Source of the DNA: a virus
Virus record (IMG/VR): IMGVR_UViG_3300042378_000010
Coordinates: 1 to 25,583 of that record
Strand: one strand, 5' to 3'
DNA: 25,583 bases
Positions 938 to 12,554 of this stretch are shown here, piece by piece (the stretch's first letter is position 1; the number at the start of each line of letters is the position of its first letter). The notes under the pieces are model-generated. The model searched no databases. It was not told where the DNA came from and saw only the letters and a list, made by a program, of their open reading frames with translations. The position numbers and the translations under genes were made by a program.

Positions 938-3900
938 ATGGCTCAGAATAGAGAAATTGGCGAACTTGGTCAAGTTGTAACAGTCAATACAGCTGCAGAA
1001 AGCGTTAGCGTTGGTAACACTGTTATCCATACTATCGGAATAACTGTAGGTAATACTTCCATTCATAGTAATGGTATTACTATTTCTGGCCAGTCTATGA
1101 ACAACACTTCATATCCAGGCACAGCAAATAACACTCTTTATGTCGGGTCAGTAACGGCTAATGATGTTGTTTCTAATACAGACCTTCAAGCTAATTTAGT
1201 TGTCATTAGATCAGATATAGCCAACTCCTATTCTAATACAGTTTCATATATCAGTAGTTCTATAGAAACTGCTAACGCTGCAATGGTTGCTAATGCTGCA
1301 GCAGCCTATTCTAACTCTGTAACATATACTGATACCAAGATATTCACGGCTAATGCTGCTATAGTTGCTAATGCTTCTGCTGCATATTCTAACGCTGTGA
1401 GTTATACGGATAATGCATATTCCAATGCAGTATCATATATCAACAGTTCTATTGGAACTTCTAATGCTGCTATAGTTGCTAATGCTTCTGCTGCATATTC
1501 TAACGCTGTTACATATACAGATACTAAGATTGGAACAGCTAACCTAGCAATTGCTGATGCATACTCTAACTCCGTTTCTTATACTGATTCTAAGATAGCA
1601 ACAGCTAACCTAGCAATCGCTAACGCATATTCTAATGCAATTTCTTATGCAGACTCAAAGATAGCTACTGCTAACTCTGCTATAACAGCTAATGCGTCAG
1701 CTGCATATTCTAATGCAGTTTCGTATACTGATTCTAAAATTGCTACTGCGAATCTAGCGATTGCTGACGCATATTCGAATTCGGTCAGTTATACAGATTC
1801 AAAGATAACTACCGCTAATTCAGCCATAACAGCTAATGCGTCAGCAGCGTATAGCAACTCCGTTTCTTACACAGATTCAAAGATAGCTACTGCTAATGCC
1901 GCTATCTCTAGTGCATACTCCAACTCCGTTTCTTACACAGATTCAAAGATAGCTATCGCCAATTCAGCCATAACAGCTAATGCTTCTGCAGCATATTCTA
2001 ATGCCACAACATACGCATCAAACGCTTCTAATATTTCTTCCGGAACTGTAGCTGAAGCTAGACTTCCATACAGAATGGATCAGAATGTCAGAACTTCTGA
2101 TTCTGTAGAATTTAAAGGTATGACCCTAACTGGAAACCTTGTTGTTTCTGGTAATGTTAACATTGTTGGTGCGAATAATCTTTCGCTAGTCGATAATATG
2201 ATTTACCTAAATTCTAACAGCACTGTTTCCAATCCAGATCTTGGATTTGCTGGTAATTATAACGATGGTACTTATCGCCATACTGGGTTTTTCAGAGACG
2301 CCAGCGATGGTATCTGGAAAGTTTTTGACAATTATGGACCAGAACCAGATGCTAGTCCTTATATAGACACTTCAAATACAACTTTCCATCTAGCTAATTT
2401 TCAAGCGAACAACTATTTCGCAGGTAACACAACATCTAACTGGTTTGTTGCTAACAATTCTGGCGCATATGCTACTAAATTCTATGACATCAATAATACT
2501 GCTTATTATCTAGACCCTGCTTCTACCTCTTTGTTGAACGGGTTGATAGTAGGATATGGAGGAACATCATCAACTATCACAATGTATGATAGTGATAATG
2601 GTAATAGATTCATTCATGCCAATTCTGGTAGATTAGGATTCTTAAATCTTGCTGCTGATGGTTGGTGGGCATGGAACGATGACAGTGGTAACTGGTTTTC
2701 TGCAACTTCTAGTAGATCACCAATCTTCTATGATTCGGACAATACTGCTTATTATATTGATGCCGCATCAACCTCTGTTTTAAATGCTGCGATCATTGGT
2801 GGTCATACATATTCATCTTACAATACCAGTAACATTCAGATAAACACCGCAGGAAATAGTTCTGTAGGATTGTTGATGAAAAACTCTGGTGGTACTTTTG
2901 GTTTCCAATTGTATGGTGGATCCGGAACCGAATATGGGTTCCTTGGATCTTCTTGGGGCAATTGGGATATGCAGAAAACCGTTGGCGGTAATCTATATCT
3001 AAATAACAATACAAATTATTATCTGAACCCACCAAGTGCGTCGTTACTAAGCACACTAACTCTCAATGGCGGAACGAGCAATCCATTAAACGTCAGAACT
3101 TCTTCTGCTGGGCCATGGGCTATCCACTTAACTCGTGATGATTTGTCAAATTCTGTTAGTGTTTACAACGCAGGTGGTTATTGGTATTTCAGCTCTTATG
3201 TTGCTTCTGGTGGTTCTTTCCGTGCTCCGATCTTCTATGATTCTGATAATACTGCATACTACATCGATCCGAATAATACATCGAGCGTGTTAGGTATCAC
3301 ACTCAACGGTAAAATTAATTTTCCATCAGGTTCAGGCGGTGGTACTACTTTCTCTGCCAATCATTACAGTATGGGCGAAGATATTGCTGATGGTGGATGG
3401 TCACATCCCCATTACTCAGATTTGATTATTGGTTATCATACTGGTATTCGTATTGGCGCATCATATTCTGGCATAAGATTCTATAATAATTCACCAACAA
3501 CAGATGCTAATAACGATGGTAATGGTGACGGTGGTGAAGCATTACTTATGACTGTTGGTGGCCATGCTGGTGGATTTGTTACCGCTCACGAATCAATACG
3601 TTCTCCAATTTTTTATGATTCTAATAATACTGCTTATTATGTTGATCCTAACTCCACAACATCACTAAGAACTGTTGGTAGTTGGAGAGCAGATTCATCA
3701 TCATGGGACGGCGAGTATTCTGGTAAAATTCAATATCACGGTAGTAACTGGTATTTTCAAGCTGCAAGCGAATGGATTTTCAGAAATTCCGGTGGCTCCA
3801 ATGTATTTTATGTCAATCAATCTGGAACAATATATGCGCCATTTTGGTATGATTCTAATAATACCGCAAGATATGTTGATCCTAACTCCACAACTCTACT

Positions 3901-4705
3901 CGAAGATTGTAGAGCAAGCATCTTCTATGATATTTATGATACAAACTATTATGTTCAAGCAAGATCGATTTCATATCTAAATGATATTAGACCTAACATC
4001 ATCTATGATCGTAATGATACTTATTACTACAATGATCTTAATGCGGGTAGAAGATTTGCTGGAAGAACATACATTCATGAGTGGATCGAGTTCGTAAACT
4101 TCACTGGACTATATTCACCAAACAATGGCGCCCATTTTCATCCAAATGATTTGTCTTATGGGTCGTGGCGTTCAAGAGGATCTAGAAATGGTTGGGCAGG
4201 TATCGAATTTGATGCGTCACAGAATATTTCATTGATGATCAATACTGCTGGCACCGTTCAAGGATTTCATAACAATGCTGTGGGATGGAGACTTTATATC
4301 GAAAACGGAACAGGCCACTTCCCAGGAAACGTTATTGCTTATTGGTCAGATAGAAGACTCAAAGAAAATTTGAGACCAATTGGTAACGAGGCAACTCAAA
4401 TATTGTCTAAACTGACAGCCTATAGATTTAACTGGAATAATAAGGTAAAAGATTTCCATGCTGAAATCGAACCAGGTAAAGAAGAAATCGGTCTTATCGC
4501 ACAGGAAGTTCAGGCCGCCATTCCGGACGCTGTTGTCATTAATAGATCAGCTAATAAAGCACACATCGATGGAACAGAATCAGAATCAGAATATCTAACA
4601 ATCAATTGGAACAAGATCACTCCATTGTTGGTTCAGGCCTTAAATGATACAACAAAAGAACTTAATGAATTGAAACAACTTCTAAAAGATAAGGGAATAC
4701 TATGA
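938..4705 (+). CDS. Long tail fibre protein with repeat stalk and S74 chaperone domain
   Basis: This 1255-aa protein is probably a trimeric tail fibre. An AAAGG ribosome site precedes the ATG. In order it shows: an N-terminal segment opening MAQNREIGELGQ, likely the virion-proximal end; about eleven Ala/Ser/Asn-rich repeats of 22 or 26 residues (AYSNSVSYTDSKIATANLAI type) over roughly residues 95-365; a segment containing GTVAEARLPYRMDQNVRTSD and DLGFAGNYNDG, of a kind recurrent in fibres of marine T4-like phages; about eight copies of a motif like FYDSDNTAYYIDPNNTS between residues 515 and 1035; and a C-terminal S74 domain (AYWSDRRLKENL, GLIAQEVQAAIPDAV, YLTINWNKITPLLVQAL). Ser1137 is the expected self-cleavage residue. 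The motif repeats and S74 domain are shared with the upstream partial gene, so the two are probably paralogues. The receptor is not predictable. Confidence 0.88.
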   Translation: MAQNREIGELGQVVTVNTAAESVSVGNTVIHTIGITVGNTSIHSNGITISGQSMNNTSYPGTANNTLYVGSVTANDVVSNTDLQANLVVIRSDIANSYSNTVSYISSSIETANAAMVANAAAAYSNSVTYTDTKIFTANAAIVANASAAYSNAVSYTDNAYSNAVSYINSSIGTSNAAIVANASAAYSNAVTYTDTKIGTANLAIADAYSNSVSYTDSKIATANLAIANAYSNAISYADSKIATANSAITANASAAYSNAVSYTDSKIATANLAIADAYSNSVSYTDSKITTANSAITANASAAYSNSVSYTDSKIATANAAISSAYSNSVSYTDSKIAIANSAITANASAAYSNATTYASNASNISSGTVAEARLPYRMDQNVRTSDSVEFKGMTLTGNLVVSGNVNIVGANNLSLVDNMIYLNSNSTVSNPDLGFAGNYNDGTYRHTGFFRDASDGIWKVFDNYGPEPDASPYIDTSNTTFHLANFQANNYFAGNTTSNWFVANNSGAYATKFYDINNTAYYLDPASTSLLNGLIVGYGGTSSTITMYDSDNGNRFIHANSGRLGFLNLAADGWWAWNDDSGNWFSATSSRSPIFYDSDNTAYYIDAASTSVLNAAIIGGHTYSSYNTSNIQINTAGNSSVGLLMKNSGGTFGFQLYGGSGTEYGFLGSSWGNWDMQKTVGGNLYLNNNTNYYLNPPSASLLSTLTLNGGTSNPLNVRTSSAGPWAIHLTRDDLSNSVSVYNAGGYWYFSSYVASGGSFRAPIFYDSDNTAYYIDPNNTSSVLGITLNGKINFPSGSGGGTTFSANHYSMGEDIADGGWSHPHYSDLIIGYHTGIRIGASYSGIRFYNNSPTTDANNDGNGDGGEALLMTVGGHAGGFVTAHESIRSPIFYDSNNTAYYVDPNSTTSLRTVGSWRADSSSWDGEYSGKIQYHGSNWYFQAASEWIFRNSGGSNVFYVNQSGTIYAPFWYDSNNTARYVDPNSTTLLEDCRASIFYDIYDTNYYVQARSISYLNDIRPNIIYDRNDTYYYNDLNAGRRFAGRTYIHEWIEFVNFTGLYSPNNGAHFHPNDLSYGSWRSRGSRNGWAGIEFDASQNISLMINTAGTVQGFHNNAVGWRLYIENGTGHFPGNVIAYWSDRRLKENLRPIGNEATQILSKLTAYRFNWNNKVKDFHAEIEPGKEEIGLIAQEVQAAIPDAVVINRSANKAHIDGTESESEYLTINWNKITPLLVQALNDTTKELNELKQLLKDKGIL
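1219..2037 (+). repeat. In-frame repeat array encoding the Ala/Ser/Asn-rich fibre stalk
   Basis: About eleven units encode AYSN-(S/A)VSYTDSKIATAN-type peptides, alternating between a 22-residue form and a 26-residue form with an added TANASA segment. Some copies are identical at DNA level: 48 bases at 1351-1398 recur at 1462-1509 (111 bases apart), and 34 bases at 1855-1888 recur at 1921-1954 (66 bases apart). All spacings are multiples of three. Confidence 0.9.
2478..4040 (+). repeat. Dispersed repeats of the YDxxNTAYYxDPxST motif
   Basis: About eight diverged copies of a roughly 20-residue motif are encoded near bases 2480, 2720, 3000, 3226, 3603, 3838, 3919 and 4000. The central copies read IFYDSDNTAYYIDPNNTS or close variants, and the last two are degenerate. 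Spacing is irregular, so they probably divide the distal fibre into unlike modules. A further copy lies in the upstream partial fibre gene near base 190. Confidence 0.8.
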
Positions 4706-4887: not shown

Positions 4888-5292
4888 ATGGCAGTAACAT
4901 ATACTTGGGAAGTAACAGGTCTTAAGACAACAACAGTAGCTAACACTTCTGATGTTGTCGTTCAGACATACTGGAAGAAAAAGGGAACCGATGAAAGCGG
5001 TAATGTTGGCGAGTTTAGTGGAGCAACTCCGTTCTCTGCCAATAGCATGCCAGCAAACACAACTTTCGTTCCATTCTCTGATCTAACAGAATCAGACGTT
5101 CTATCATGGATTAAAGCCGTTGTTGTTGGTAATTACGAAGAACATGTAAACGGCCAGATCCAGAAACAGATTGATGATAAGAAGAACCCAGTCGTAGAGA
5201 ACGTTCTACCTTGGGCTCCAGTAACAAATACTTCACCATCAACACCAGAACCATCAGTAAACACATCAAATAGTTCAACTAGCAACACTTAA
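4888..5292 (+). CDS. Small fibre-region protein, paralogue A of three
   Basis: This 134-aa protein has an AAGGAG ribosome site. It opens MAVTYTWEVTGLKT, then QTYWKKKGTDESGN, an F-x-PFSDLTESDVLSWI segment, an IQKQIDDKK helix and a VLPWAP end. The same plan (Y-x-W start, YW strand, LT/LK-x-(S/E)-x-V-x-x-W helix, LPW near the end) is seen in the proteins at 5500 and 5841, so the three are related. This copy alone carries a Ser/Thr/Pro/Asn tail of about 27 residues after LPW. Small proteins of this type occur beside fibre genes in marine T4-like phages, to my recollection. Function is unknown; a virion accessory or fibre-linked role is inference from position. Confidence 0.8.
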   Translation: MAVTYTWEVTGLKTTTVANTSDVVVQTYWKKKGTDESGNVGEFSGATPFSANSMPANTTFVPFSDLTESDVLSWIKAVVVGNYEEHVNGQIQKQIDDKKNPVVENVLPWAPVTNTSPSTPEPSVNTSNSSTSNT

Positions 5293-5499: not shown

Positions 5500-5829
5500 A
5501 TGGCTATTGTCTACGAATGGGTCGTTTCTCAAATGGAATGTCACTCAGAAAAAAACAAAAAGAAACAAGTCGTTTCCCTTGTGTATTGGAGATATGCAGC
5601 TAGGGATGGCGAATATTACGCTGATGTTTATGGGTCTCAGCATTTGGATACAGACAACTTAAAAGGTTTTGTTCCATATGCGAACCTAACTAAAGAACAA
5701 GTCATTGGTTGGCTCGAAACTACTATGGGCGAAAAGAAAATCGCAGATTTTCAGGCATCTCTGAAGGCTGCGATTGAAGAAATGAAAGAGCCTAAAGTGG
5801 TTACGCCTCCACTGCCATGGTCGAATTAA
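5500..5829 (+). CDS. Small fibre-region protein, paralogue B of three
   Basis: This 109-aa protein begins MAIVYEWVVSQMECHSEKNK and follows the same plan as its neighbours: a VYWRYAARDGEYYADVYG strand region, the FVPYANLTKEQVIGWLETTM helix, and PPLPW four residues from the end. It is the most diverged of the three copies. It contains one Cys and has no signal peptide or membrane span. AAAGG precedes the ATG. Function unknown. Confidence 0.8.
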   Translation: MAIVYEWVVSQMECHSEKNKKKQVVSLVYWRYAARDGEYYADVYGSQHLDTDNLKGFVPYANLTKEQVIGWLETTMGEKKIADFQASLKAAIEEMKEPKVVTPPLPWSN

Positions 5830-5840
5830 GGAGTCATTAA

Positions 5841-6191
5841 ATGTCAGTATCATATAAATGGGCTGTAAAAAATATTAAGTGCAAAAAGAACGATAAAGAC
5901 GAAGATGTTGTTGCAGAAATTTACTGGAGCAAGGTCGGTAAAGATTCTTCTACTGGCGCCGAAGGCTATTTTGAAGGAATTGTTCATGCTGACAATATTC
6001 CTGTTGTTGAAGGCAAGCCATCGAAATTCGTTGCTTATAATAAACTAAAAGAATCAGACGTTCTTAATTGGGTTAAAAAGGTTGTTGGTTCTCATGAGAG
6101 TCAAATAGACCTTTCAATTCAGAAACAAATTGATGAACAGAATAATGTGTTAATTGATACTCCTTTGCCATGGGTTAAACCAGAAAAATAA
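5841..6191 (+). CDS. Small fibre-region protein, paralogue C of three
   Basis: This 116-aa protein begins MSVSYKWAVKNIKCKKNDKD and is closest to paralogue A: ESDVLNWVKKVVG against ESDVLSWIKAVVVG, SIQKQIDEQ against QIQKQIDDK, then PLPW near the end. Its ribosome site is AAGGAG, 8 bases before the ATG and 11 bases after the previous stop. It lacks the Ser/Thr-rich tail of A. Together with A and B it looks like a local gene triplication. Function unknown. Confidence 0.82.
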   Translation: MSVSYKWAVKNIKCKKNDKDEDVVAEIYWSKVGKDSSTGAEGYFEGIVHADNIPVVEGKPSKFVAYNKLKESDVLNWVKKVVGSHESQIDLSIQKQIDEQNNVLIDTPLPWVKPEK

Positions 6192-6230: not shown

Positions 6231-8153
6231 ATGGCGTCAGTAGACTTTAAAGTAAAAAACGGTTTAGTAACCGGAGCAAACAATACATCACTAGGAACAG
6301 CTGTTACAGTCTTAATTGGTGGTAACGTTGGTATTGGTGATACAAATCCAAGTTACAAACTATCTGTTTCGGGTTCGTTAAATGCTACTGGTGCCATTAC
6401 CCAAGCTGGTAATCAGGTACTTCATGCCTCTAACTATAACAGCTATGTTCCAACATTCTCAGGAACTGGTGCTACTGGCACTTGGGGCATTAATATTACA
6501 GGAAATGCTGTTACTGCAGGTGGTCTTGCTGTTTCATCTGCTCAAGCTGCATCTACAATTGTAGCTAGAGATGCAAGCGGTTATGCGTTCTTTAGTTATA
6601 TCAACAGTGCTTCTCCAAACAACGAAAATCCAACCATATCTCAGATTGTTGTTACTACCGGCTCCGATGGTTATTATCGTAAATCTTCAATAGCTTCATT
6701 GACTTCAGCTGTCCAGAGCAACGCTTCTGGTAACTGGAACATCAATTCATATAACATAACACAGTATCCTCTTAATCAGAGTGTTCTTACAACTGCAGCC
6801 CCAACCTTTGCTGGCCTAACATCAACAAGTAATTTGACAGTGGCTGGAGGAGACCTTTATTCTTATAGGTCAGGAGGAACTACTGGCGTATTGTTTTTAA
6901 ACAGCTCTGGAAGTAGATACCTTTATTGGGATAATACAACTTATAATTTGAATGGAGCAGAATTAAACATTAATGGGCAGCGTGCTCTTAATGCTGGTAA
7001 TTATAACAGTTATGCAGTAGCCAGAACTTCTACAAACAGAAATGGTGTTTATAAACTATTCAGAAACGATAACGATTCAGACTACAATATTCAGACTACT
7101 TGGGGCGCTGATCGTTCTGGTTATTGGTCATTAAGAGGTTACAATGGAGACACATATCATGCTCCATGTTATGTAGGTTATTCTGGATATGCAGATTCTG
7201 CTGGTTCTGCTGGTTCTGCCACTAATGCCTCAAACGCTACTAGAGCAACCTGGGCAAATGGTATTGACACAACTCAGCCATTGTTAGGTTACGCAGTTTC
7301 TGGTGTTAATATTGATTATGGCGCACAAGGCGGACCACAGATTCAAAGTCAAGGTTCTGGTGCTGCGATGATTTCTTTTCATCGCGTTGGTTCTTATGCT
7401 ATCAATCTTGGTCTTGGAACTGATAATCAGCTACGCACTGGTGGTTGGTCGCGTAGCGGTAGTTTTGTTATTTTTGATAGTGGTAACTATAGTTCTTATG
7501 TTCCTGCAAGAGATGGTTCTTATGCTTATGGTACTTGGGGTATTAATATCACAGGTAATGCGAATTATGCTTCTTCTGCTGGTTCTGTTGCTTGGGGCAA
7601 CGTTTCAGGAAGACCAACAACAGTATCAGCATTTACTAATGACTCGGGGTACGTCACTTCTGCTGGATCCGTTGCTTATGCTAACTATGCTGGATATATT
7701 GCAGGTAGCACTTTCTGTTATACTACTGCCGGGTTGTCTGTTGGTACAAGTTCTAATCCTTATGGCGCAGGTCATATTGTAGCTACTCAGAATATTACCG
7801 CTTATTTTTCTGACCAAAGACTTAAGACAGACATTAAACCAATTGAAAATGCTATTGATAAGATTAAACAAATATCAGGCGTTACTTTCAGAAGCAATGA
7901 ATTGGCAGCTTCTTTCGGATATACAGACAAAGAAGAACAAGTTGGTGTTATTGCTCAAGAAATTGAGGCAGTGTTGCCTCAGGTTGTTAAACCTGCTCCA
8001 TTTGATGTTGATAGAGTTGATGGTGTTATTGTTTCTAAGTCTGGACAAAATTATAAGACTGTTCAATACGAAAAGATTGTTCCATTGTTGATCGAAGCAA
8101 TCAAAGAACAACAGAAACAAATTGATAGATTAAATAATAAAATTGGAGATTAA
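6231..8153 (+). CDS. Tail fibre protein with S74 chaperone domain, 640 aa
   Basis: This is the third fibre-type gene ending in a Peptidase_S74 domain. The N-terminus MASVDFKVKNGLVTGANN leads into NVGIGDTNPSYKLSVSG, a motif common in phage fibre proteins. The middle contains two near-copies of an NYxSYVP...GTWGINITGNA module, around residues 65-95 and 420-450, then a WGNVSGRPTTVSAFTNDSGY stretch typical of beta-rich fibre repeats. The C-terminus has AYFSDQRLKTDI with Ser527 as the expected self-cleavage residue, GVIAQEIEAVLPQVV, VQYEKIVPLLIEAI and a final coiled coil. It lacks the 22/26-residue stalk repeats of the 1255-aa fibre, so it is probably a separate shorter fibre. Receptor unknown. 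Confidence 0.85.
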   Translation: MASVDFKVKNGLVTGANNTSLGTAVTVLIGGNVGIGDTNPSYKLSVSGSLNATGAITQAGNQVLHASNYNSYVPTFSGTGATGTWGINITGNAVTAGGLAVSSAQAASTIVARDASGYAFFSYINSASPNNENPTISQIVVTTGSDGYYRKSSIASLTSAVQSNASGNWNINSYNITQYPLNQSVLTTAAPTFAGLTSTSNLTVAGGDLYSYRSGGTTGVLFLNSSGSRYLYWDNTTYNLNGAELNINGQRALNAGNYNSYAVARTSTNRNGVYKLFRNDNDSDYNIQTTWGADRSGYWSLRGYNGDTYHAPCYVGYSGYADSAGSAGSATNASNATRATWANGIDTTQPLLGYAVSGVNIDYGAQGGPQIQSQGSGAAMISFHRVGSYAINLGLGTDNQLRTGGWSRSGSFVIFDSGNYSSYVPARDGSYAYGTWGINITGNANYASSAGSVAWGNVSGRPTTVSAFTNDSGYVTSAGSVAYANYAGYIAGSTFCYTTAGLSVGTSSNPYGAGHIVATQNITAYFSDQRLKTDIKPIENAIDKIKQISGVTFRSNELAASFGYTDKEEQVGVIAQEIEAVLPQVVKPAPFDVDRVDGVIVSKSGQNYKTVQYEKIVPLLIEAIKEQQKQIDRLNNKIGD

Positions 8154-9375: not shown

Positions 9376-10164
9376 ATGTTCTCGTTTTTTCACAGATCAT
9401 CTGTAATCCATTTAGATTGTTTTACATCCAGCAATGACGCTTATAAATTCGCCCCAATAGTCTATTCCAATCAAGCAAAACCAGAATGGTATGACGGCGT
9501 ATTAAAACCCCAGCCGACCAACACAAAATGGCCTCAGTTCAAATTGAACGAAGATGGTAATATTTATTTTGATTGGAACATTTCCATAAGAACAGTAAGA
9601 GCTTGTCCTGGTTTCCATGAACTCTATAAAAGAGGGTTTATGTTGGAAAACTGGTGCGATTTTGTTGTAAATGTAAATGGAACTGGTGATATTTCTTATA
9701 ATTTTTCTAACGGTAAAGCTCCTATACTGCATGGTTATCATCAGGTAGATCCAGGTTTCAAAGACCATCATATTCTGAAATTGAATAGTCCTTGGATAAT
9801 CCAGTCTAAAGAAGATGTTCAGTTTATAGTTGTTCCTGCTCAATGGTCGTTAGAAAAATACAATTTTCATATCCTACCTGGGATGGTAAATTTTCATCAT
9901 CAAACAGGAAGCAATGTTTTTTTGGCCATACATAAATTTAAACAAGATCAATTCGCAATTCATATGGGTCAGCCATTGGTCCAATTCATTCCTTTATCGG
10001 ATAAGAATATAAAAATCCACAATCACATTGTTACCGAGGCAGAACTTACCACTAAAACTTATAGTGTGATTGGAAGATCTTTTGGATGGAGAAAGAACGT
10101 TTCTTTGGTGAAAAGAAACGACAGAAGAGAAAACAAAAAATGCCCTTTTGGATTTGGTGAGTAA
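9376..10164 (+). CDS. Conserved-looking phage protein of unknown function, 262 aa, His-rich
   Basis: The ATG follows ATAGGAGATTTGTT, a good ribosome site, 25 bases after the divergent promoter. Visible features are an N-terminal FFHRSSVIHLDCFTSSNDAY, a KPEWYDGVLKPQP segment, IRTVRACPGFHELYKRGFML with ENWCDFVV after it, many His (119, 122, 131, 132, 165, 174, 175, 186, 196), and AIHMGQPLVQFIPLSD. The tail is strongly basic, ending near KKCPFGFGE. The IRTVRACPGF block resembles hypothetical proteins I recall from marine T4-like phages. The GQPLVQF segment faintly recalls dUTPase/dCTP-deaminase-like barrels, but I see no catalytic motif set and do not assign that function. Its stop overlaps the ribosome site region of the SGNH-like gene, so the two are probably co-expressed. 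Confidence 0.75.
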   Translation: MFSFFHRSSVIHLDCFTSSNDAYKFAPIVYSNQAKPEWYDGVLKPQPTNTKWPQFKLNEDGNIYFDWNISIRTVRACPGFHELYKRGFMLENWCDFVVNVNGTGDISYNFSNGKAPILHGYHQVDPGFKDHHILKLNSPWIIQSKEDVQFIVVPAQWSLEKYNFHILPGMVNFHHQTGSNVFLAIHKFKQDQFAIHMGQPLVQFIPLSDKNIKIHNHIVTEAELTTKTYSVIGRSFGWRKNVSLVKRNDRRENKKCPFGFGE

Positions 10165-10165
10165 T

Positions 10166-10876
10166 ATGTTATATACATTTGGCGATAGTATGTCTTTTGG
10201 TTGGAACTTGTATAAAGTTTATTCCGAAGAAGATCGTAAAGCTCTGGCATGGCCAGGTAAGTTATCTAAGATGTTAGACGTTCCTTTGACCGATTTTTCT
10301 TTTCCAGGAGCTAGTAACTGGCGTGCTGCGAGAATACTCCAGTCTTTGCCGCTAACCAAAGACGATGTTGTAGTAATTCAATGGTCTTCGTTTGGTAGAA
10401 CAGAAGTCGGAGTTAATCCAAATTACCAATATAATTCTACAATGCATGAAGATGAGAAATATAAAATCTTAGATGGCACTCAAGAGGATTTTGGTGTAAG
10501 AACTAAAAATCTTTGTAGGACTATTATTCCTCATACGACTGATGAGTTCACTAAAAAATATATGTATCATACTTTTAATACATTCTGGAACGAAGAATGG
10601 TTTTTACAGATGTTTAAGGTTATGATGTCTAGTAGCCTGTATGTTCTACAGAAGTCTGAATGTAAGTTCATTATATTTGATGGCTGGATGCAGCATTGTG
10701 ATATAAATGACTATAGAGATGTCCCTCAATATATAATCAGAGGGACTACCATGAATAATATTACCAAAAATATAACAGGTATTACAGAACAAGATCTTAG
10801 TTATGGTGGTCCAGAACAGAATCAGGTTATAGCTGATACTGTGTATGCGCATTTGGAGAAGATTTATGGACTTTGA
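10166..10876 (+). CDS. SGNH/GDSL hydrolase-like protein, possibly catalytically altered
   Basis: I place the start at 10166 (GGTGAG 6 bases upstream) rather than an in-frame ATG at 10148, because MLYTFGDSMSFGWN puts the family's first block at the N-terminus. The protein has 236 residues. Block I is GDSMSFG with Ser8 as nucleophile, block II is FPGASNWRAAR near residue 48, and a VVVIQWSSFGRTEVG strand-loop near residue 70 occupies the block III position. The last block, which normally carries the Asp and His, reads DLSYGGPEQNQVIADTV at residues 210-226, with Gly where family members usually have His (GHP type). The protein may hydrolyse or bind ester-linked acyl groups, or may have lost catalysis. 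It overlaps the following membrane-protein gene. Confidence 0.75.
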   Translation: MLYTFGDSMSFGWNLYKVYSEEDRKALAWPGKLSKMLDVPLTDFSFPGASNWRAARILQSLPLTKDDVVVIQWSSFGRTEVGVNPNYQYNSTMHEDEKYKILDGTQEDFGVRTKNLCRTIIPHTTDEFTKKYMYHTFNTFWNEEWFLQMFKVMMSSSLYVLQKSECKFIIFDGWMQHCDINDYRDVPQYIIRGTTMNNITKNITGITEQDLSYGGPEQNQVIADTVYAHLEKIYGL

Positions 10877-11078
10877 TTGGAACCACATAAAGAAAATTAA
10901 ATCTGATTATTTTACTCACTGTTATCTTGCAATGAAGTTTAACCTTATGCTTTTATTCGCCGTTATAACAGGCACCATACATGCATTCTTTCCATTTATA
11001 TTCGCTTTTACTCCATATAGATTGGCCAAAAAGGTGGTAAATGAAACTGAAAAATATTTTGTCCACGATAATGACTGA
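10866..11078 (+). CDS. Small membrane protein, DUF6356-like
   Basis: The start at 10866 has GGAG 7 bases upstream and overlaps the SGNH-like stop; an ATG at 10845 in the same frame lacks a site. The 70-aa product begins MDFDWNHIKKIKSDYFTHCY and has one hydrophobic stretch, roughly residues 22-46 (MKFNLMLLFAVITGTIHAFF onward), then a basic tail. The plan SDYFTHCYLAMKF...IHAFFPFIF matches what I recall of the DUF6356 family of small membrane proteins (SYxxH...A...IHxxxP). Function is unknown. It sits between the SGNH-like and adenylation-like genes and overlaps both, suggesting a common role at the inner membrane; that is inference. Confidence 0.7.
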   Translation: MDFDWNHIKKIKSDYFTHCYLAMKFNLMLLFAVITGTIHAFFPFIFAFTPYRLAKKVVNETEKYFVHDND

Positions 11079-11781
11079 TGGAATAATAATTAAAAGCTCA
11101 GGTTCATCTGGTCCTCCCAAGAGCTATTATCAACCAACTGGTAAAATATTTGCGGCCAATAAAGTTGCCAGAGAAGTTCAAGGTATAACGCAGAACAGTA
11201 AAATATACACTGTTATGAAGTTGTCTCATGCTGGAGGATTGTTCGGTCAGACGGTGCCAGCGCTGGAAGTTGGCGCTTATGTTTACACAGATCAATTTAA
11301 TGCATACGAATGGGTTAAAAAGATAAACAATTTTACCCATTCTCACATAACCCCATTACACGCCAAAGCTATTATGATGACCAAGAGGTTCTGGGAGCTA
11401 GATCTCAAAGGCGTGACAATTACTTGTGGCGCTGAACCAGTAACCTGGGATATTATTGAAGCATTTGTTCCAAGGGGTTGTAAATTTATAGTAAATTGGG
11501 GCATGAGCGAAATTGGGCCAATAGCAATAAATCATATATTTGAAACCATGGAGGAAGTCCAAAGAGTAAAGAATATGTGCCCCAAGGGAGCCACGGTAAT
11601 GGGTTCTAATAAATACTGTGAATATCAAATAAATAATGGAGAATTGGTTGTAAGAGGAGATATTTGTATATACGATGATTGGTATCATACCAAGGATGCA
11701 GTTATAGAATTAGATAATATCCTTTTTTATACTGGAAGAACCAATAAAGAGGTGGATTTTAATAACCCGACAAAGGGATAA
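11041..11781 (+). CDS. Compact adenylate-forming (ANL superfamily / acyl-CoA synthetase-like) protein
   Basis: This 246-aa protein carries ordered motifs of AMP-forming acyl/aryl-CoA synthetases: phosphate loop SSGSSGPPK at 19-27, HAGGLFGQ near 63, ITPLHAKAIM near 103, CGAEPVTWD near 129, the NWGMSEIGP (YGxTE-type) motif at 152-160, GELVVRGD at 200-207, YHTKD (usually YxTGD) at 215-219 and YTGRTNKEVD at 230-239 with Arg233. Typical ANL enzymes have about 500-600 residues. Here the first ~150 residues before the P-loop and the whole C-terminal subdomain with the adenylation Lys are absent, although there is no frameshift. It may make an acyl-adenylate only, or need a partner. The start at 11041 follows AAGGTGG; an ATG at 11071 is possible. 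It overlaps the membrane-protein gene. The substrate is unknown. Confidence 0.8.
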   Translation: MKLKNILSTIMTDGIIIKSSGSSGPPKSYYQPTGKIFAANKVAREVQGITQNSKIYTVMKLSHAGGLFGQTVPALEVGAYVYTDQFNAYEWVKKINNFTHSHITPLHAKAIMMTKRFWELDLKGVTITCGAEPVTWDIIEAFVPRGCKFIVNWGMSEIGPIAINHIFETMEEVQRVKNMCPKGATVMGSNKYCEYQINNGELVVRGDICIYDDWYHTKDAVIELDNILFYTGRTNKEVDFNNPTKG

Positions 11782-11816: not shown

Positions 11817-12554
11817 ATGGTACCAACAACAAGAACAGAGTTTGCCGAATATTGTCTTAGAAAATTGGGCAAACCAGTAATCGAGATTAATGTTGATGAT
11901 GATCAGGTTTCAGATCGTGTAGACGAAGCTCTTCGTTGGTATTGGGATTATCATTTTGATGGATCCGAAAAGACCTACTACAAGAAAATAATCACAGCTG
12001 AAGATATAGCCAATAAGTATGTCACAATGCCAGACAATATTATTGGCGTTGTTAATATCTTTGACCTTGGTTCTGCATTGGGGTTAGGCAATCTATTCAA
12101 TATTCGTTATCAGATTGCTTTGAATGACCTTTATACTCTTACTTCAGTATCTATGGTTCCTTATTATATGGCCATGAATCATGTCCAGTTTCTAGAACAG
12201 ATGCTGGTTGGTAAAAAACCATTACGTTACAACCGCCATATGAACAAACTTTACATTGATATGGACTGGAACCAAGTTGTTGAAGGTCAATATCTTGTTG
12301 TAGAAGCATATCAAGTCGTCGATCCCGACGTATATACAGATGCATGGGGCGACCGCTGGTTACAGCGTTATGCTTCTTGCCTAATAAAACAGCAATGGGG
12401 TCAGAATATGAAGAAGTTTCGTGGTATGAAACTTCCAGGCGGCATAGAATTCAACGGTCAGCAAATTTATGATGAAGCCACTCAAGAAAGAGAAGAACTT
12501 GAGAAGGAAATGATTTACACATACAGCTTGCCAGCAACTGATATGATTGGATAA
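11817..12554 (+). CDS. 13: gp13-like neck protein
   Basis: This is a head completion (neck) protein that, with gp14, closes the packaged head and makes the tail attachment site. The 245-aa protein begins MVPTTRTEFAEYCLRKLGKP with VIEINVDDDQVSDRVDEALR, the characteristic start of gp13 in environmental T4-like phages. Later it has MDWNQVVEGQYLVVEAYQVV and WGDRWLQRYASCLIKQQWG, also typical. T4 gp13 is longer (309 aa). It is followed by gp14 after 2 bases. AAAGGTAGG lies before the ATG. It is the first gene of the conserved morphogenesis block. Confidence 0.9.
   Translation: MVPTTRTEFAEYCLRKLGKPVIEINVDDDQVSDRVDEALRWYWDYHFDGSEKTYYKKIITAEDIANKYVTMPDNIIGVVNIFDLGSALGLGNLFNIRYQIALNDLYTLTSVSMVPYYMAMNHVQFLEQMLVGKKPLRYNRHMNKLYIDMDWNQVVEGQYLVVEAYQVVDPDVYTDAWGDRWLQRYASCLIKQQWGQNMKKFRGMKLPGGIEFNGQQIYDEATQEREELEKEMIYTYSLPATDMIG

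Follow-up and report, generated by a model that had tools for sequence, protein, structure and literature searches.

The window (the whole stretch of DNA analysed, 25,583 bases) is an IMG/VR record of a T4-like phage. Its TerL is about 56% or less identical to that of cultured phages, e.g. the Sinorhizobium phages phiN3 and phiM12. The gene of interest codes for a half-size ANL protein (half-ANL). The first-pass annotation had placed it in a phage late region, and the surrounding genes are indeed T4-like structural genes (TerL, head-tail adaptor). The features of the locus are listed here; fractions refer to a set of 74 half-ANL proteins (see below).

9376..10164, + strand: gene for a phrog_7084 protein, function unassigned; first gene of the cargo island
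10148..10876, + strand: SGNH/GDSL-hydrolase-like gene, a weak match (PF13472, E 0.0028, under the cut-off); part of the island, shared only with locus L088
10845..11078, + strand: DUF6356 small membrane-protein gene, 77 aa (PF19883, 2.6e-9); 38-base overlap with the ANL start
11031..11037, + strand: Shine-Dalgarno-like sequence AAGGTGG, three bases 5' of the ATG at 11041
11041..11781, + strand: half-size ANL protein, 246 aa, from the P-loop (A3) to A8, without subdomain A and without the C-terminal domain
11095..11121, + strand: A3 P-loop SSGSSGPPK (residues 19-27); G21 74/74, S20 73/74, G24 71/74, K27 68/74
11227..11238, + strand: A4 motif H63-A-G-G66; H63 64/74, G66 74/74
11494..11520, + strand: A5 motif NWGMSEIGP (residues 152-160); W153, G154, M155, E157 and G159 each 74/74
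11680..11697, + strand: A7 motif WYHTKD (residues 214-219); W214, T217 and D219 74/74
11737..11739, + strand: A8 arginine R233; 74/74
11817..12554, + strand: head-tail adaptor (phrog_211), the island boundary, kept in relatives without the ANL gene

In relatives whose adaptor genes are 74-88% identical, the structural genes are the same, but the stretch from the fibre gene to the adaptor is without the four genes at 9376-11781. The half-ANL gene is thus cargo, carried at a variable site of a T4-like phage. Among 79 adaptor-matched loci, neither a half-ANL gene nor a GNAT-like gene (see below) was found (0/79 each), and DUF6356 was found once, in the T4-like relative L017. There, DUF6356 and an adjoining aminotransferase-like gene (L017:2-1079) occupy the same island position, without a half-ANL. 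Elsewhere in the window, three tandem paralogous small proteins are encoded between two fibre genes (4888-5292, 5500-5829 and 5841-6191). The product of the last matches phrog_7802, and a single paralogue is seen in the related phages L008, L011 and L014. The fibre proteins encoded at 938-4705 and 6231-8153 have ends which, by eye, resemble Peptidase_S74-type intramolecular chaperones (GLIAQEVQ... motif).

The 246-residue frame is uninterrupted, without an internal stop, and contains all motifs that had been noted, in order: SSGSSGPPK (19-27), HAGG (A4), GAEPV, NWGMSEIGP (A5), GELVVRGD (A6), YHTKD (A7) and TGR (A8). The protein passes the cut-off of the Pfam AMP-binding family PF00501 (1.5e-12; 47.4 bits, cut-off 29.9), with a match that spans only profile positions 167-377 of 384. 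It begins just ahead of the P-loop and ends 13 residues past R233, at the position where other ANL enzymes have the hinge, followed by the C-terminal domain. Subdomain A and the entire C-terminal domain, including the catalytic lysine (A10), are absent, as proposed previously, and both ends are shared by the 74 family members. One detail needs revision. YHTKD had been considered a replacement of the usual YxTGD; the motif is present, but its lysine is not special, as this position is G in 31/74 and K in 24/74 members, and only the Asp is invariant. None of the NCBIfam named ligase models came near its curated cut-off with the window protein (best PRK06187, 47.3 bits vs 476; menE, 19.8 bits vs a cut-off of 330); for other half-ANL members, NCBIfam results were taken by E-value only. 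A PHROGs search returned nothing for the window protein at 0.001, and a weak match to phrog_36676 for 15 half-ANL members. The window protein has no match among cultured phages; two other half-ANL members showed only matches of about 25%, in uncultured faecal records.

Structure prediction, proposed as a check in the first-pass annotation, yields an ANL fold over the full length. The AlphaFold2 model from the 74-row alignment (pLDDT 94.6, pTM 0.91) has the N-domain fold (subdomain B plus beta-barrel). Its best Foldseek matches in the PDB are MenE enzymes (3ipl, E 2e-14), and VIA-align gives Z of about 19-22 to many ANL enzymes across model residues 1-246; a non-ANL fold is rejected by these matches. 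The nearest solved chains by sequence profile are feruloyl-CoA synthetase 8wev and Staphylococcus aureus MenE. By its modelled fold and its motifs, the half family is a member of the ANL superfamily, yet not a complete ANL ligase. In BFVD, three giant-virus proteins named arylamine N-acetyltransferase (A0A3G4ZRZ8, A0A2I2L327 and A0A3G5A6B2) match the ANL model and are possibly ANL fusions.

A search with the single protein returned near-identical contigs only. A three-row alignment retrieved same-size proteins, 39-72% identical, in other viral contigs. A search with an alignment of those proteins (A2) reported 198 viral-contig relatives, of which 80 were kept, plus 54 on contigs of bacterial genomes; the bacterial set includes at least four full-length enzymes of the ordinary type (L239-L242). 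Reduction of the half-ANL set to <85% identity left 74 members (50 viral, 24 bacterial), all 223-283 aa long. The half-ANL homologues thus all have the same half length, the point on which the earlier interpretation had been made to depend. With 8-54 residues N-terminal of the P-loop (mostly 12-31), they have no subdomain A, and with 1-17 residues C-terminal of the A8 arginine, they have no C-domain and no A10 lysine. Fifteen of them stop one residue past that arginine. Because 74 non-redundant homologues keep both boundaries, this is not a chance or isolated truncation. In the open-access literature, no description of half-size or C-domain-less ANL proteins or of these phage islands was found, and family libraries gave no description of the half-ANL family, though one may exist all the same.

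The nucleotide-site motifs (A3, A4, A5, A7 and A8) are all present, with near-invariant key residues. Residues common to the half family and to 31 full-length ANL proteins belong mainly to the nucleotide site (S20, G21, G24, K27, G65-G66, G154, E157, W214, T217, D219 and R233). Specific to the half family are H100, H102, T104, T114, K115, W153, M155 and G188, which may contact the substrate or a partner. In eight of the nine estimable close pairs, dN/dS is 0.04-0.15; the ninth pair has too few changes (dS 0.018). The window protein and that of L088 differ by a pS of 0.78 (saturated) and a pN of 0.16. The half-ANL family is under purifying selection, in line with a suggestion made when the gene was first noted.

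Members from bacterial contigs include SAR11, SAR116, Methylophilaceae and Gammaproteobacteria. In the tree, they occur at several places among the viral ones, and well-supported branches require four or more switches between viral and bacterial carriers; the window protein is inside an all-viral clade. In SAR11, the half-ANL gene has an SDR gene on one side and a PQQ-dehydrogenase-like gene on the other; folD- and hemC-like genes (by eye) are found in these loci too, so that the gene is chromosomal. Its occurrence is sporadic: a half-size gene was found in 1/289 Alphaproteobacteria, and a general spread through SAR11 is not supported (2/147 Pelagibacteraceae). Absence in the first-look genome search is weak evidence, as the PF00501 search of G000 was empty though hmmscan matches. 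Three contigs (L229, L235 and L236), whose neighbours are otherwise typical of viral loci, may be phage DNA in bacterial assemblies.

The gene upstream of the half-ANL gene passes the cut-off for DUF6356 (37.5 bits, cut-off 24.4). The DUF6356 protein is small, is predicted to sit in the membrane and has conserved His, Tyr, His and IH..FP positions; the open-access literature covered mentions it once, in passing. It is encoded immediately upstream of the half-ANL in 63/146 loci (32 viral, 31 bacterial) and elsewhere in the locus in 24, counts which include repeat fetches of some contigs. Five of the eight bacterial genomes tested have exactly one DUF6356 match and, in these, it directly precedes the half-ANL wherever coordinates were compared. 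DUF6356 occurs in 61/289 Alphaproteobacteria, of which only one (G001) has a half-size gene, so that it has roles of its own.

Other phages have a third gene family (C1), in the orders GNAT-DUF6356-ANL, GNAT-ANL or ANL-GNAT. It is assigned a GNAT fold from an AF2 model (pLDDT 93.9), for which the top Foldseek PDB matches are GNAT proteins (E 3e-5 to 1e-3); Pfam reports a GNAT match in 1/42 members only. DUF6356 and GNAT are both missing near 9 viral and 14 bacterial half-ANL loci.

In marine phages, the half-ANL occurs in dense islands (L093, L095, L099, L101, L104 and L105). By Pfam or by eye, genes there resemble sulfotransferases, radical SAM proteins, methyltransferases and Asp-hydroxylases, besides carbamoyltransferase-, tryptophan-halogenase flavoprotein- and class IV aminotransferase-like genes. 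To judge from this gene content, the islands look biosynthesis-like. L104 and L105 combine DUF6356, a class IV aminotransferase and the half-ANL in a single cluster. A phage cytochrome P450 (PF00067, 3.6e-13) directly precedes the GNAT-like and half-ANL genes at L098:449-1729 and L092:4231-5481; in L098, a B12-type radical SAM-like gene (3017-4525, by eye) comes after these genes. Full-length phage ANL enzymes of 456-475 aa, with a C-domain, also exist (L108:5563-6936; G323, G327, G328 and G324), and G323, G327 and G328 encode carrier-protein domains as well.

ANL enzymes have been described as two-domain machines, in which the C-domain has to swing so that the active site receives first the catalytic lysine and later the acceptor. 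The A10 lysine drives adenylation. A protein that had become a mere AMP-binding relic could do without the P-loop and Glu157, which lie on the phosphate and Mg side. In luciferase, the N-domain comprises residues 4-436, and K529 of the C-domain drives adenylation; fragment 1-437 alone retains residual binding and catalysis, and activity is regained when split halves are brought together (PMC4757408). The N-domain of FadD23 is almost inactive without its C-domain (PMC9989471). Because of these domain roles, the half family would be equipped for Mg-ATP and carboxylate binding, but not with the lysine that speeds up the first step or the lid that presents CoA. The invariant P-loop glycine, Glu157, Asp219 and Arg233 favour Mg-ATP use over an inert relic, and the missing catalytic lysine argues against efficient self-sufficient catalysis.

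Our preferred reading, which we give an even chance, is that the half-ANL is a minimal ATP- and carboxylate-binding core that may form or hold an acyl-adenylate and hand the acyl group to a partner protein. By its predicted fold, the stand-alone core is made up of subdomain B plus the beta-barrel that ends the usual N-domain, and the A8 arginine, near the C-terminus of the protein, closes it. Mg-ATP and a small carboxylic acid are its expected ligands, and it would form or hold the acyl-adenylate, with both the adenylation and the substrate class predicted. A separate protein would accept the acyl group, in place of the enzyme's own mobile C-domain and CoA. In the window phage, the likeliest partner would be the DUF6356 membrane protein encoded directly upstream; in many other phages, a GNAT-fold protein is encoded in the half-ANL gene unit. 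This reading is supported by the strict boundaries, the conserved nucleotide-site residues, the modelled fold, the purifying selection and the recurrent neighbours, with luciferase fragment 1-437 as a precedent. We speculate, with more doubt than confidence, that half-ANL, DUF6356 membrane peptide and often the GNAT-fold protein constitute a two- to three-gene acyl-transfer unit, common to phages and abundant marine bacteria, in which a core that has given up its C-domain for good adenylates together with a membrane partner. Against the preferred reading stand the absence of the A10 lysine, the near inactivity of the FadD23 N-domain on its own (PMC9989471), the lack of DUF6356 or GNAT near some members and the occurrence of DUF6356 elsewhere in Alphaproteobacteria.

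A partner might instead supply the lysine and the lid in trans, half-ANL plus DUF6356 and/or the GNAT-like protein then being a complete ligase or transferase. The overlapping half-ANL/DUF6356 gene pair recurs in phages and bacteria, and ANL-adjacent DUF6356 proteins mostly have an FTPY-LAK tail that is not seen in other alphaproteobacterial DUF6356 proteins. The reactivation of joined luciferase halves (PMC4757408) would also fit. However, 44 viral records (which are fragments) contain no stand-alone AMP-binding_C domain, all five matches being within frames of 456-475 aa, and the GNAT-like gene is absent from the window and from most bacterial half-ANL loci. We consider such a split enzyme unlikely.

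The first-pass annotation had also brought up a binding-only protein, which would sense or sequester an adenylate, nucleotide or acyl compound without any chemistry. The missing A10 lysine and C-domain fit this proposal, as does the near inactivity of the isolated N-domain of the related enzyme FadD23 (PMC9989471). Conserved together with the ribose-side residues D219 and R233, however, are the P-loop, Glu157 and the A4 region (H63 in 64/74). P-loop, Glu157 and A4 region are needed for ATP phosphates, Mg and carboxylate, and pure binding is in our opinion rather improbable.

In the window and in L088, the SGNH-like, small membrane-protein and ANL genes are consecutive, which would allow for O-acylation of a surface polymer by the three products, in analogy to DltD, DltX and DltA. 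This is very unlikely: no DltB-type acyltransferase was seen, the SGNH match is under the Pfam cut-off, other half-ANL members lack that gene, and the window record has no carrier protein match. A carrier protein as the acyl acceptor of the half-ANL was rejected in general, since PP-binding occurs in only 5/44 viral records (which are fragments). Finally, a decayed or truncated, non-functional copy of a full-length acyl-CoA ligase, for which half length is the sole argument, is rejected as extremely improbable, given same-size homologues, shared boundaries, intact frames and purifying selection.

The shared boundaries and unchanged ATP-binding residues point to a functional minimal form of an enzyme that is otherwise regarded as dependent on the half missing here. 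A family that occurs in nature, is under selection, stops at the domain hinge and has no subdomain A serves as a natural experiment on how little the fold can manage with, and the protein is small and predicted to fold well. What began as one odd gene is now a conserved, mobile family with recurrent partners. It belongs to a known superfamily, and the variant was not found to have been described before. Many uncultured phages carry it, as do some chromosomes of SAR11 and SAR116, and it travels with a widespread membrane protein (DUF6356).

Several known proteins are comparable. A short MenE-like protein from Dyadobacter fermentans (PDB 4gs5, 350 residues) has the ANL fold without a preceding subdomain A. 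Its residues 22-250 align to model residues 1-238; the absence of subdomain A therefore has a precedent among solved ANL proteins. The Dyadobacter protein continues, however, for about 100 residues past residue 250 and, to judge from this length, apparently keeps its C-terminal domain, whereas the proteins of the phage family stop at that point. o-Succinylbenzoate-CoA ligase MenE (3ipl, 6nj0 and 5bur) has P-loop, A5, A7 and A8 residues in common with the half family, but it is a full-length enzyme that has the A10 lysine and makes CoA thioesters. The ANL amide-bond synthetase McbA (6sq8), which hands acyl-AMP straight to an amine, has the same fold as the model (Z 19.7) but is full length, with a C-domain. 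In an uncultured Caudovirales phage, a 214 aa protein deposited as "AMP-dependent synthetase/ligase" (A0A6J5L770, BFVD) has a half-size ANL model (TM-score 0.80, normalised by target); it is only 20% identical, but is probably a similar protein. The N-domain fragment of firefly luciferase (1-437) ends in the same C-terminal boundary region as the half family and has residual activity (PMC4757408); this fragment is, however, artificial and laboratory-made, and it keeps subdomain A.
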